Assembly (NCBI RefSeq): GCF_000515255.1
Contig: NZ_KI911559.1
Coordinates: 1,339,548-1,403,547, forward strand
Reading direction: 5' to 3'
Source: Rhodovibrio salinarum DSM 9154
GTDB taxonomy: Bacteria > Pseudomonadota > Alphaproteobacteria > Kiloniellales > Rhodovibrionaceae
Length of the DNA: 64,000 nucleotides
The position numbers and the translations under genes were made by a program. The number at the start of each line of letters is the position of its first letter. The first letter of the stretch is position 1. Below the pieces are notes generated by a model. That model made no database searches. It saw only the letters and a program-made list of their open reading frames with translations, and was not told the origin of the DNA. This document shows positions 29,781-34,172 of this stretch, piece by piece.

Positions 29781-31787
29781 TTAGCCGATCTGGCCGCCCT
29801 CGTTCCGCGTGATCGCGACAACCGCCGGACGGACCGGCAGATTGTCGTCGAAGTCGGGCCAGCGGGTCACCGGGTTCTCGAAGGTCGAGCCCTCGGCATC
29901 GCCCGGATGCTGGACCGCAACGAACAGCGTGCCGTCGTCGGGGGTAAAGAACGGTCCACACATCTCAGCCCCGACCGGACAGCGGAAGAAGTGGCGGCTG
30001 GAGCCGCGGAGATCGCCCTTGGTCTCGATCGCCCAGACACCGTCGGCGCGGCCGGAGGTTTCCTGGTCGTTGCCGTCGGTGGAGATCCACAGCCGCCCGC
30101 GGTGGTCGACCACGGCGTTGTCCGGATTGACGAACCAGCCGTGCTGGCTGGTGCCCTTGCCCCATTGGGCGCCGGCGTTCGGGTCGTTCGGATCGCCCGC
30201 CAGCACCAGGATATCCCAGCGGTCCTGCAGACCGGCGAAGTCGCCGTCGGTGACGTCGATCTCCAGCACGTGCCCGGCGGAGTTGCCGGCGCGCGGGTTG
30301 GCCGGGTGGGTGGCATCCGGTTTGCGCTTCTCGTTGGAGGTCAGCATCACGTAGATCTTGCCCTCCTGAGCGTCCGGCGCGACGTCTTCCGGCCGGTCCA
30401 TCGGCGTGGCGCCCAGCAGGTCGGCGGCCCGGCGGGTCTCGATCAGCACGTCCGCCTGGCTGTTGAAGCCGTTCTCCGGGGTCAACGGCCCGGTGCCGTA
30501 GACGATCGGCAGCCAGTCGACCGTGCCGTCCTCGTTGAAGCGGGCGACGTACAGTGTGCCGCTGTCGAGCAGGCCGAAGTTGTTGGTCCGGTTGTTGTGG
30601 TCGACCCGGCCGTAGGACACGAACTTGTAGACATAGTCGAACCGCTGGTCGTCGCCCATCACCGAGACGACGCGACCGTCCTTGTTCTCGATCGTCTCCG
30701 CGCCCTCGTGCTTGAAGCGGCCCATGGCGGTGCGCTTCACCGGCGTGAACGATGGGTCGTAGGGATCGTACTCGACCATCCAGCCGAACCGGTTCGGCTC
30801 GTGCGGCTCCTTGCCGATGTCGAAGCGGTCGTCAAAATCCGCCCAGGCGTACCAGCCGCCCGGGACGCCGTAGCGGGTGTGGTTCTGCGCTTCAGCCGGG
30901 TCGGCGTTCTCGCCCTTGAAGTAGCCGTGGAAGTTCTCCTCGGCGATCAGCACCGTGTTCCACGGCGTCACGCCGCCGGCGCAGTTATTGACGGTGCCGA
31001 TTACCCGCGTGCCGGAAGAATCGTGGGAGGTTTGCAGGCGGGGATGGCCGGCGGCCGGCCCGGAGATGGCCATCTCCGTCGAGCGCAGCGAATAGCGGCG
31101 GTTGTACGGGCTGTCCTTGCGGTAGCTCCACTTGCCGTCGCGCCCGCGCTGCACCTCGATCACCGAGTGGCCATGCGCGGCCATCTCGATCGCCACCGTC
31201 TCCGCCGTCGGCTGCTCGTAGTTGGGGAACATCAACTCTTCGTTGGTGTATTCGTGGTTGATGCACAGCAGTCCGTGGTCGGCGCTGTCGGACCCTGCGG
31301 GCAGCGGGACGAAGCCGATGAAGTCGTTGTTGTAGCCGAACTGCTGTTCCTGCGCCTCGGCGGTCTGGTGCATCGGGTCGAAGGCGGGAGCGCCCGGCGC
31401 GACCGGATCGCCCCAGCGGATCAGGATGTCGGCATCGTAGCCCTCGGCGACGTGGTGGGTCTCGTCGACCGCGGCCTCCAACTCAGGGAACTGGAAGCTC
31501 CAGGCGGATTCGGGGACGCTACCGGCACCGCTGGTCTCCGCCGCCTCGGCCTGGCTACCGACGAGACCGCCGGTCTTGGCGGTCAGGGTCGCCACGGCTG
31601 TCATCGCGAGCGCGCCGCGCAATACGTCCCGCCGGCCGTAGCGCGCGCCGATCACCTCGCCGATGGTCGGTCGGTCGAGCGGGGAGGACGGCGTATCCTC
31701 CGCGAATTCCATCCGCGTCGAGCTGCTGTAGCCCTGGTCGACCGGATCCTGTTCCGGCTCCCGGGAGAGGGGGGTACCATCGCTCAT
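29781..31787 (-). CDS. PhoX-family (DUF839) alkaline phosphatase, Tat-exported
   Basis: A 668-residue protein of the PhoX/DUF839 family, calcium- and iron-dependent phosphomonoesterases that release phosphate outside the cytoplasm. The N-terminus has a twin-arginine signal, GRRDVLRGALAMTAVATL, with the arginines at 52-53, unusually far in because of a 50-residue leader. Family features include LLCINHEYTNEE, FNNCAGGVTPW-like NCAGGVTPWNT, a GGWYAWADFD segment and NPDNAVVDHRGRLWISTDGN. ATG 31787 is chosen from the matching N-terminus. Phosphate-starvation control is usual for the family, but no clear Pho box was found upstream. Confidence 0.88.
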   Translation of the reverse strand: MSDGTPLSREPEQDPVDQGYSSSTRMEFAEDTPSSPLDRPTIGEVIGARYGRRDVLRGALAMTAVATLTAKTGGLVGSQAEAAETSGAGSVPESAWSFQFPELEAAVDETHHVAEGYDADILIRWGDPVAPGAPAFDPMHQTAEAQEQQFGYNNDFIGFVPLPAGSDSADHGLLCINHEYTNEELMFPNYEQPTAETVAIEMAAHGHSVIEVQRGRDGKWSYRKDSPYNRRYSLRSTEMAISGPAAGHPRLQTSHDSSGTRVIGTVNNCAGGVTPWNTVLIAEENFHGYFKGENADPAEAQNHTRYGVPGGWYAWADFDDRFDIGKEPHEPNRFGWMVEYDPYDPSFTPVKRTAMGRFKHEGAETIENKDGRVVSVMGDDQRFDYVYKFVSYGRVDHNNRTNNFGLLDSGTLYVARFNEDGTVDWLPIVYGTGPLTPENGFNSQADVLIETRRAADLLGATPMDRPEDVAPDAQEGKIYVMLTSNEKRKPDATHPANPRAGNSAGHVLEIDVTDGDFAGLQDRWDILVLAGDPNDPNAGAQWGKGTSQHGWFVNPDNAVVDHRGRLWISTDGNDQETSGRADGVWAIETKGDLRGSSRHFFRCPVGAEMCGPFFTPDDGTLFVAVQHPGDAEGSTFENPVTRWPDFDDNLPVRPAVVAITRNEGGQIG

Positions 31788-31929
31788 TGTGCAAATCCCT
31801 GTTTCTGGCCTGTCTGTCCAGGTGGTTAACGGCCAGATTGTGCAGGCGAGTTGTTTGCAGAGCGGTGACACCTGTGCTGCGCATTGATGACGGCGTCTAC
31901 ACCCGGAGGTCACCCCAGGTGTCTTGCTG

Positions 31930-32454
31930 TTATGGCGTGTCACCCGCCGGGTGTGAGCGATGCCGACCGACATGGGCCGCCAGTTCCTGCCAGGGCGCAA
32001 GGTCCCAGCTTCCCCGTGCGGCCCCGGAGGGCGACGGCAGCACGAACACGTCGATGTCAGGGAACGGGCTTTCGGGCTGTCGGCCCGTTACAACTTGGCG
32101 GCTGCCCAGAAAGACCTTGGCCGGGCGCTTACCCACGAAGGCCAGCACACGCGGCGTGTAGCGCCGCATCTTGGCGGCGAGGGCGGCCGGGTCGTCGCCG
32201 CCGGCCGGGAGGGCGGCGTCGGCGCCGCTGGCCGTTTGGCACAGGTCGGTCAGCCCCAGACCGTAGTTTGGCAGCTCGCGGAAACGTTCGGGCGGCAGTT
32301 CAACCGGCGTCAGGCCTACCCGTGTCAGGGTCGGCCAGAAGCGATTCCCGGGTCCCGCGTAATACGCACCAACGCGCGCCGAGACGGCGCCGGCCGCACT
32401 GCCGCAGAATACCACGTCGAGCCCGGGTGCCAGAATGTCGGGCAGGATGCTCAC
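31930..32454 (-). CDS. Mug-like mismatch DNA glycosylase
   Basis: A 174-residue member of the G:T/U mismatch-specific glycosylase (Mug/TDG) family, starting at GTG 32454. It aligns by eye with E. coli Mug over ILAPGLDVVFCG, the AGPGNRFWPTL segment, GLGLTDL and the late VLPSPSGAAR. The catalytic loop differs: where Mug has GINPG with the catalytic Asn, this protein has GSAAG (residues 18-22), and VLPNPSG has become VLPSPSG. It may have altered specificity or activity. It is downstream of no obvious operon partner; the phoX gene follows on the same strand after 142 bp. Confidence 0.8.
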   Translation of the reverse strand: MSILPDILAPGLDVVFCGSAAGAVSARVGAYYAGPGNRFWPTLTRVGLTPVELPPERFRELPNYGLGLTDLCQTASGADAALPAGGDDPAALAAKMRRYTPRVLAFVGKRPAKVFLGSRQVVTGRQPESPFPDIDVFVLPSPSGAARGSWDLAPWQELAAHVGRHRSHPAGDTP

Positions 32455-32534: not shown

Positions 32535-33065
32535 CTATTGCTTTTTGCGAAAGCGGTCCAGGGTCACGACGTTGTCGTCGCCACCGGTGTCGTCGTCCCC
32601 GCCTTCGGCCTTTTCCGGGGCACCGCCGGCCTCGCTGGCGTTGCCCTGATAGTTCGAGGCCTGTTCGGGGGTCGCGTTTTCGCTGTCGTCGTCCTCGCCC
32701 GCGTCGAACTGCAGGCCAAAGCGCACCGAGGGATCGGCGAAGGCGGCGATCGCCTCGAAGGGGATGTGCAGCTGTTCGGACACGTTGTTGAACGTCAGCG
32801 TGACCTGGAAAGCGTCCTCGCCGACCTGCAGATCCCAGAACTGGTACTGCAGGACGATCGTCATCTCGCGCGGGTAACGCTCCTTTAGCGAATCCGGCAT
32901 GACGACGTCGGGATGGTCGGTGCGGAAGGTCACATAGAAGTGGTGTTCGCCCGGCAGCCCGTGTTCGGCGACCTGGGCGAGCGCCTGACGCACCACGCCC
33001 CTCAGAGCGTTCTCGACCATCACGTCGTAATGCAGGTCGTCCTCGGAGCCGCCGGTTTCGGCCAT
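32535..33065 (-). CDS. sspB: SspB-family ClpXP adaptor
   Basis: A 176-residue protein of the SspB type. The folded tag-binding domain covers about residues 10-115 (ALRQ-like region, HHFYVTFRTDHPDVVMPDSLKERYP, MTIVLQYQFWDL, FEAIAAFADPSVRFGLQF). A long acidic, flexible linker follows, ending in VVTLDRFRKKQ, the short basic C-terminal motif that docks to ClpX. SspB delivers ssrA-tagged proteins to ClpXP. The split ssrA gene lies directly upstream on the same strand, a telling pairing. AGGAAGGA precedes ATG 33065. Confidence 0.93.
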   Translation of the reverse strand: MAETGGSEDDLHYDVMVENALRGVVRQALAQVAEHGLPGEHHFYVTFRTDHPDVVMPDSLKERYPREMTIVLQYQFWDLQVGEDAFQVTLTFNNVSEQLHIPFEAIAAFADPSVRFGLQFDAGEDDDSENATPEQASNYQGNASEAGGAPEKAEGGDDDTGGDDNVVTLDRFRKKQ

Positions 33066-33149
33066 ATCAAATCCTTCCTACGCCTCGTCTGCTTGCGGCG
33101 GAGGCTATTAAAGCGGATGCGTGGGAGCAATGAAAGTGGGGCTTTCTGT

Positions 33150-33500
33150 TGCTAGGTAGCCCCAGACCCCACCTAGCCGGACTCGACCCGACTAGGGATT
33201 TATGCCGTGGTTGCCTTGGCGCTGTTACGCGGCCGCGGCAACCGGAGCGCGATTGTCGTTCGCACTTCTTGGATGGCCCGATAACGGCGGATGCCATGCC
33301 GGGGCAAAGACACGTCTTTTGCCGCGCGTCGATCCTGGTTCGCCCCCATGAGGTGGCAGCCCGACCCGACGTGCAACGCCGAAAGAGGGGAACGGCGATA
33401 CGCGGGTCGGTGATGTTGGTGGAGGCGCCGGGTACTGCCCCCGGGTCCGCTACGGCTAGTGAACGTGCCGTTTATGCCCATAGTCCGGTGCGACCGGACA
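33150..33500 (-). ncRNA. ssrA: split (circularly permuted) tmRNA
   Basis: Read on the minus strand, the acceptor piece comes first. It ends with a T-arm of stem ccggg/cccgg and loop ggcagta, then the acceptor strand cgcctcc and ACCA (33417-33427). After a 69-base intervening segment (33348-33416) the coding piece begins GGGGGCG at 33347, which pairs with the acceptor strand (one G-U), followed by the tRNA-like aaccaggatcgacg. Next comes a tag frame, then helices, one being gctaggt/acctagc (33151-33177). This is the alphaproteobacterial two-piece tmRNA layout. Outer ends are approximate. Confidence 0.92.
33225..33263 (-). other. tmRNA tag-coding frame
   Basis: Starting at resume codon GCG (33263-33261), the frame reads ANDNRAPVAAAA and stops at TAA (33227-33225). 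The ANDN start is the usual SspB-recognised part and the alanine-rich end the ClpX-recognised part. The internal RAPV is not one I recognise from other tags. Confidence 0.9.
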
Positions 33501-33638
33501 TTTATCCATGTGGGGCAGAGGCTTACCTTTTTAAAGGGTGGCCGCGCAGGAGGGCTCTCGCTTCGGCCTCGCGCGGTCGCTGCCGCTCGTCTAGGGTCGT
33601 TTGCGATAGTTCGTTCTGACAGGAAAGACGCCTTGGCC

Positions 33639-34172
33639 ATGGTCGCTCCCGATTCGCCCGTCCGTCCGCGCATGACCCTCGTCGTCGCCGCCGACGCGGC
33701 GGGGGGAATCGGCCAGGAAGGCGGGCTGCCGTGGCGTCTGCCGGATGACCTGAAGTGGTTCAAGCGGGTCACGATGGGGCATCCGCTGGTGATGGGCCGG
33801 AAAACCCACGAGTCGATCGGCCGTAGCCTGCCGGGCCGACTGAACATCGTGGTCACCCGTCAGCCGGACTACGCGCCGTATGCGGACGCCGTGCTGGCGG
33901 ATTCGCTGGAGGCGGCGCTGGATCGCGCCGCGCAGGGCAACGCCGAAGAGGTGGCCGAGGAGGTGATGGTGATCGGCGGGGCGCAGATTTTCCGCAGCGC
34001 GCTGCCCCTCGCGGATCGTGTGCTGCTGACCCGCGTGCACGACACCTTTTCCGCGGACACCTTCCTTGAGGACTTGGACCCGCAGGTCTGGCAGGAAACC
34101 TGGCGGGAGGACCACGCCGCCGACGCCCGCAACCCGCACCCCTACAGCTTTATCGAGTTGGTGCGGGGGTGA
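33639..34172 (+). CDS. dihydrofolate reductase
   Basis: A 177-residue enzyme that reduces dihydrofolate to tetrahydrofolate with NADPH. The hallmarks are MTLVVAADAAGGIGQEGGLPWRLPDDLKWFK (active-site acid in LPDD), MGRKTHESIG and VIGGAQIFRSAL. The start is uncertain: ATG 33639 is used; a TTG at 33633 is better spaced from AGGAA (33621-33625); and the family's core begins at Met 33672. It is divergent from ssrA. No thymidylate synthase gene is adjacent. Confidence 0.93.
   Translation: MVAPDSPVRPRMTLVVAADAAGGIGQEGGLPWRLPDDLKWFKRVTMGHPLVMGRKTHESIGRSLPGRLNIVVTRQPDYAPYADAVLADSLEAALDRAAQGNAEEVAEEVMVIGGAQIFRSALPLADRVLLTRVHDTFSADTFLEDLDPQVWQETWREDHAADARNPHPYSFIELVRG

Follow-up and report, generated by a model that had tools for sequence, protein, structure and literature searches.

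Does the permuted tmRNA gene found in this stretch of Rhodovibrio salinarum DSM 9154, with its RAPV-type tag, represent an unusual ssrA, and is it the only tmRNA gene of its genome? Permuted alphaproteobacterial tmRNAs are well known, and tmRNA in general, cleaved to two pieces, alanylated and bound by SmpB, rescues ribosomes on non-stop mRNA and tags their products for proteolysis. The accessible parts of PMC11633108 and PMC9004378 agree with that tmRNA pathway. The gene lies in a stretch of 64,000 nucleotides, the whole of which is called the window here, within a genome (G000) that consists of a single 4,176,524-bp contig (99.01% complete, 0.19% contamination). The evidence set out below shows that the window gene, copy 1, is ordinary and that its tag is already used by relatives. 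The same genome carries a second full-length ssrA, copy 2, and this second tmRNA is a more interesting fact than the window gene; two divergent, apparently intact genes in one genome are rare.

The window gene is a complete permuted ssrA

A sequence-only reading of this DNA had proposed a two-piece tmRNA on the minus strand and had named the Rfam alpha_tmRNA model as the means of checking it. That model, RF01849, gave a full-length match on the minus strand (33539-33135, 228 bits, E 8.6e-65, model positions 1-355 of 355; cmscan), well above the family's gathering score of 50. ARAGORN independently called one permuted tmRNA at the same place (Table 1), and the two results together bear the proposal out. 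RF04321 (tmRNA_permuted) also matched (33479-33225, 127.9 bits; cmscan), and the ssrA gene is the only place in the 64-kb window with gathering-level Rfam matches by cmscan, to these two families.

The strand and the permuted gene order given in that reading are likewise confirmed by cmscan and ARAGORN, and the pairing of the acceptor strands is visible in the sequence itself. All seven positions of the acceptor stem pair (33347-33341, GGGGGCG, with 33427-33421, CGCCUCC), and the stem contains the G3-U70 wobble, a U-G pair at model positions 113-150. An A at 33420 is followed by the encoded CCA at 33419-33417, so that copy 1 has both the wobble and the CCA associated with alanine identity. The tag frame extends from a GCG resume codon (33263-33261) to a TAA stop (33227-33225) and has the expected hydrophobic, alanine-type end; ARAGORN's tag, ANDNRAPVAAAA followed by TAA, is the one given in the sequence-only reading. 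Aligned to the covariance model, copy 1 has a standard base pair at every one of the 35 consensus pairs used, and it retains 107 of 107 near-invariant columns (those with conservation of 95% or more among the other sequences). A sigma-70 scan of copy 1 revealed no promoter-like site, and no terminator was found directly after copy 1 or copy 2.

Table 1. Features at the window locus (positions within the window)
Feature	Position	Strand	Basis
sspB, ssrA-tag adaptor of ClpXP	32535..33065	-	Pfam PF04386, E 9.6e-49; PDB relatives 2nys, 2qas, 2qaz
ssrA copy 1, permuted two-piece tmRNA gene, acceptor piece before coding piece	33134..33512	-	RF01849, 228 bits; ARAGORN; model extends upstream to 33539
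Coding (5') piece: D-arm, tag frame, downstream helices	33134..33347	-	sequence, cmscan, ARAGORN
Tag reading frame, 12 codons + TAA, ANDNRAPVAAAA	33225..33263	-	ARAGORN coding part 250-288 and translation
Internal transcribed spacer, 69 nt (inferred)	33348..33416	-	CCA at 33417, first acceptor-stem G at 33347
Acceptor (3') piece: T-arm, encoded CCA	33417..33512	-	sequence reading; 5' limit is ARAGORN's, putative
Dihydrofolate reductase gene, divergent from ssrA	33591..34172	+	Pfam PF00186, E 4e-54; start codon putative (domain match from residue 28)

By analogy with general tmRNA biology, the copy-1 transcript would be cut into acceptor and coding pieces by tRNA-processing enzymes, which would be expected to remove the 69-nt spacer. 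Once charged with alanine, the resulting tmRNA would be taken by SmpB to ribosomes that have stalled on broken mRNAs. It would append A-ANDNRAPVAAAA, with the charged alanine preceding the encoded tag, and the tagged product would be recognised by SspB and ClpXP. The genome contains one match to the SmpB family (PF01668, C1:2134996-2135421).

The tag and the neighbourhood are shared with relatives

The sequence-only reading had picked out the RAPV middle of the tag as unusual, a view that comparison with other genomes does not support. The identical tag, ANDNRAPVAAAA, occurs in a member of the same family (G059) and in Rhodovibrio sodomensis DSM 9895 (L281); another member of the family (G060) has ANDNRTPVAAAA, which differs by one change, and G140, from another family, has ANDNRAPVAVAA. 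A search of named genomes with an RAPV-type tag pattern returned at least 117 stretches, a number that gives no estimate of frequency because the pattern pre-selects such tags, and 92 of those listed carry an ARAGORN tmRNA call. Among these 92 in the matches listed, ARAGORN read ANDNRAPVAVAA in 89, ANDNSAPVAVAA in two and ANDNRAPVAAAA in one, that of R. sodomensis. The RAPV middle is common in Rhodobacterales. Given that ANDNRAPVAAAA is present in relatives and ANDNRAPVAVAA is common in Rhodobacterales, the idea of a novel tag was rejected. Two other loci, L093 (G174) and L094 (G388), have long ARAGORN tags that resemble two tag starts in tandem (ANQNNAFVVACNDNAPIAIAA and ADNDNAFGVEAMNDNAPAVAAAA, respectively).

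The gene order around copy 1 is also conserved. In the window, sspB starts 68 nt downstream of ssrA. An RF01849 search of 61 genomes of the host order, run with stricter filters, found an alpha tmRNA in 56: one copy in each of 55, two in the R. salinarum genome and none in the remaining five genomes. Of the 56 loci, the window locus included, 51 have an sspB match next to ssrA; each of the other five is cut off by the end of its contig within the tmRNA match. In the 48 loci where ARAGORN called the tmRNA and sspB was matched, sspB without exception follows on the strand of ssrA, at a distance of 14-224 nt downstream. A dihydrofolate reductase match is within reach in 16 of the 56. The R. sodomensis ssrA is 91.5% identical to copy 1 over the trimmed alignment, and its SspB is 88% identical to the window SspB. 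The 228 bits of copy 1 fall in the lower part of the host order, where the other genes score from 184 to 282. The presence of sspB beside ssrA across the order shows that copy 1 is an ordinary ssrA inherited vertically; it is the standard, conserved and syntenic copy of the host lineage. A PhoX-type alkaline phosphatase gene (PF05787) lies in the region 29781-32000 of the window, near the group formed by ssrA, sspB and a gene of the uracil-DNA-glycosylase superfamily.

A second, divergent ssrA in the same genome

The R. salinarum genome contains two full-length RF01849 matches. The second, copy 2, is a permuted tmRNA gene on the plus strand at C1:3088722-3089102 (L002:1501-1881). Its score, structure, tRNA-like ends and tag frame all place it in alpha_tmRNA; the tag given by ARAGORN is ANDNAAPEMAVAA, followed by TAA, and CCA is encoded. 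The sequence-only reading had named a superior ssrA at another place in the genome as an observation that would count against the window gene. In part, such a gene exists: copy 2 is full-length and outscores copy 1 with RF04321 (135.2 versus 127.9 bits), but it scores lower with RF01849 (209.6 versus 228 bits), and copy 1 remains the conserved, syntenic copy.

The two copies are 68% identical over trimmed columns (67% over 260 query bases by BLAST), and in the BLAST comparison several other genomes score better. On these two grounds, a recent duplication of copy 1 was rejected as the source of copy 2. Its structure is well preserved. In alignments fitted to the covariance model, on which all of the pair counts rest, copy 2 keeps 34 of 35 model pairs, including the G-U wobble of the acceptor stem; relative to copy 1, 22 pairs are unchanged, one differs at a single base, 11 differ at both bases without loss of pairing, and one is broken in copy 2. 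It retains 105 of the 107 near-invariant columns, a share equal to that of the R. sodomensis gene, while divergent second copies in other genomes (G140, G351 and L100 of G330) keep 76-79%. Twelve of 113 sequences score below copy 2. These retained pairs and columns indicate that selection has maintained copy 2 as a tmRNA, either here or in a donor. The compensatory changes may all predate its arrival, so they speak for function until recently rather than for function at present.

An alternative is that copy 2 is a passive recent arrival, silent or decaying. We regard this as unlikely. It would fit the restriction of copy 2 to one genome among the 61 of the order, and the absence of the copy-2 tag pattern from a named-genome collection that includes R. 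sodomensis. The 5' part of copy 2 is where it departs most from the family, yet model positions 1-40, which correspond to the copy-1-like promoter region, are aligned in copy 2 too. A sigma-70 scan found no promoter-like consensus site at copy 2, but the scan was equally blank at copy 1. Moreover, copy 2 shows no disabling change: the frame, the acceptor stem and CCA are intact, alongside the pairs and columns counted above.

The reading that we prefer is that copy 1 is the normal ssrA, and that copy 2, intact in structure, is probably expressed and working through the single SmpB, having arisen as a paralogue or by transfer rather than as a recent duplicate; this judgement is drawn from sequence comparison. 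With one smpB match in the genome, both RNAs would share SmpB, and copy 2, with tag A-ANDNAAPEMAVAA, would operate in parallel with copy 1. The tails expected on tagged proteins are AANDNRAPVAAAA and AANDNAAPEMAVAA. Since both tags begin with ANDN and have an alanine-rich end, SspB and ClpXP should handle both.

Chromosomal site and origin of copy 2

The genes on either side of copy 2, a DUF6505 gene and an agmatine-deiminase-type gene (PF04371), are convergent and lie 561 bp apart. A DUF6505 homologue was matched in 42 of the 61 genomes of the order; 30 loci were examined, and 12 relatives have both flanking genes. In 10 of these 12, the two genes are separated by at most 49 bp or overlap by 4 bp. 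The gap is 631 and 1216 bp in the other two, G001 and G005, but in these genomes RF01849 matches other contigs only. The neighbours of copy 2 within 10 kb include response regulators, a Y-family DNA polymerase, an aspartyl-type tRNA synthetase, an RNase D-like exonuclease and an exopolyphosphatase, and no mobile-element genes were found among the Pfam-scanned neighbours over the same distance. Flanking repeats at the junction amount to matches of 7 bases at most, so the mechanism of insertion has left no trace there. The tight gap in 10 of 12 relatives, together with the housekeeping and regulatory neighbours, favours insertion of a short segment in the host lineage. Copy 2 is most likely an old paralogue, or a gene from a related alphaproteobacterium, placed between convergent housekeeping genes.

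Phylogenetic analysis places copy 2 near the copy-1 clade, with poor support in both FastTree and IQ-TREE. Support in IQ-TREE was 23.2/92 for a seven-member group containing copy 2, and FastTree with viral sequences gave 0.509 and 0.955 for groups of six and seven, respectively. In the first FastTree, which still included three divergent sequences, copy 2 paired with the long-branched phage copy of G140 (0.889). A plasmid search with copy 2 returned 11 records with 60-80% identity, from Paracoccus, Sinorhizobium, Methylobacterium and Rhizobium, and none of them covered 80% of the query.

A phage-type tag on a cellular backbone

The tag of copy 2 raises the possibility of a viral source. Viral contigs of IMG/VR hold at least 120 stretches with the pattern ANDNxxPEMA.AA; among 385 alphaproteobacterial genomes the pattern occurs in one, that of R. 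salinarum, and is absent from the 384 others. ARAGORN called a PEM tag at 87 viral loci, with tags of the ANDNxxPEMA[LMI]AA type at, for example, L413, L430, L470 and L481. At four viral loci with PEM tags, five of ten proteins match PHROGs families, including a tail fibre and an exonuclease. In a viral sample drawn without regard to the tag, by means of a tRNA-domain pattern, PEM is present in 9 of 72 complete permuted tmRNAs.

These data are consistent with copy 2 being a captured and retained tmRNA, phage-derived or phage-recombined, that rescues ribosomes with a virus-like PEMA tag. One of the two changed near-invariant positions in copy 2 also carries the viral state, a G that is present in 99% of viral PEM sequences. 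However, the backbone points the other way. At eight positions diagnostic of cellular versus viral sequences, copy 2 has the cellular state at six, the viral state at one and another base at one, and its mean identity is 0.66 (66%) to 109 cellular tmRNAs versus 0.547 (55%) to 71 viral PEM tmRNAs, although the viral PEM loci are AT-rich (at most 41% G+C), which may distort both comparisons. The tree places copy 2 among cellular sequences of its own clade, and the flanking genes are housekeeping genes. A search of 50,697 phage records with copy 2 returned no match, and a tighter version of the copy-2 tag pattern was not found in viral contigs. It should also be noted that the PEMA motif was noticed post hoc. 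We therefore consider a phage-derived or phage-recombined copy 2 decidedly unlikely. A plain phage gene in particular is not supported, given the cellular backbone, the chromosomal flanks and the absence of a match in the phage collection, although the tag is nonetheless of viral type; its likeness to viral tags may reflect either convergence or recombination confined to the tag region.

Second tmRNA copies elsewhere in the class

An RF01849 match was found in 370 of 387 genomes sampled across the Alphaproteobacteria, and nine genomes have two or more (E up to 0.001). This search scored three candidates per genome under stricter filters, so weak second copies may have been missed. On recheck, the second matches of five genomes are above the family cut-off: those of R. 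salinarum, G434, G330, G351 and G140. The second matches of G174, G388, G233 and G152 are short and fall below it, and no second copy was found in G059 or G060, the relatives of the same family.

The second ssrA of G434 lies at a contig end and shares 87.9% identity with the first along 1814 bp that include dfr; this duplicate looks like the product of a mixed bin. That precedent might suggest that copy 2 of R. salinarum is itself an assembly or binning artefact, a notion that is scarcely credible given that the two copies, 68% identical, share a single 4.18-Mb contig but not a gene neighbourhood, and that the genes flanking copy 2 on both sides keep their order in relatives.

The second tmRNA of G140 (L165:8510-8850) is divergent and permuted, with 72.8 bits and the tag ANDNSPVAMAA; it lies next to tRNA-Pro, tRNA-Met and tRNA-Trp genes, and the same part of the contig carries genes for a terminase, a major head protein and a GIY-YIG homing endonuclease. 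It is a phage or prophage tmRNA within a bacterial assembly. G330 has permuted tmRNAs on AT-rich contigs at L167:8776-9129 (110 bits) and L168:7904-8252 (108 bits), and the former has tail-spike, ribonucleotide-reductase small-subunit and PAAR genes as neighbours. G351, a one-contig genome, has a second divergent permuted tmRNA (L101; L166:8874-9264) with 83.2 bits and the ARAGORN tag DNHNAQDLRVAA. It lies a few kb from a transketolase gene, and there is a Guanidine-I riboswitch 7 kb further on. Of the other second copies, that of G434 is a contig-end near-duplicate, those of G140 and one of the G330 pair lie among phage genes, and that of G351 is divergent; with three candidates scored per genome, only that of R. 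salinarum is both high-scoring and clearly chromosomal.

Implications and relation to known systems

Two intact, divergent permuted tmRNAs and one SmpB in the same genome provide a natural setting in which to probe whether the tag sequence has any role beyond degradation, and in which to ask whether spare tmRNAs guard against loss or viral interference. Within the searches described here, PEMA-type tags are limited to viral contigs and copy 2, which offers a lead on the movement of tags between phages and hosts. The fullest version of this picture, in which two trans-translation RNAs run in parallel with different degradation tags and one SmpB, and a lineage-restricted copy 2 combines a PEMA tag of phage type with a cellular backbone, is put forward tentatively, as a proposal that is quite unlikely to hold in its entirety. 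If it were true, proteins tagged by copy 1 and copy 2 may differ in their handling by SspB and ClpXP, and copy 2 may remain active when phage or stress disables copy 1.

Literature searches with partial coverage returned no paper on a second ssrA or on two tmRNA genes per genome, and none on phage-encoded proteolysis tags or on SspB with the Caulobacter ssrA tag. Copy 1 matches the two-piece tmRNA of Caulobacter and other alphaproteobacteria (RF01849/RF04321) in its gene order, the G-U pair of the acceptor stem, the T-loop, the ANDN start and alanine-rich end of the tag, and the neighbouring sspB, with no difference of substance. The order dfr-ssrA-sspB is common to the window, R. sodomensis and G060, and ssrA-sspB is found in G059. 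Copy 2 resembles the phage-borne permuted tmRNAs of IMG/VR contigs in its permuted form and PEMA-type tag; it differs from them in its cellular-type backbone and chromosomal flanks. Methylophage Melnitz provides an example of a phage-borne permuted tmRNA, as described in the accessible part of PMC9004378. According to the accessible part of PMC4131195, most bacterial genomes have one ssrA, but additional alleles, a second or a third, occur in some and are sometimes borne on a plasmid. Such genomes are like that of R. salinarum in having more than one full tmRNA gene, and, as far as that text goes, a second ssrA is therefore no new kind of thing.
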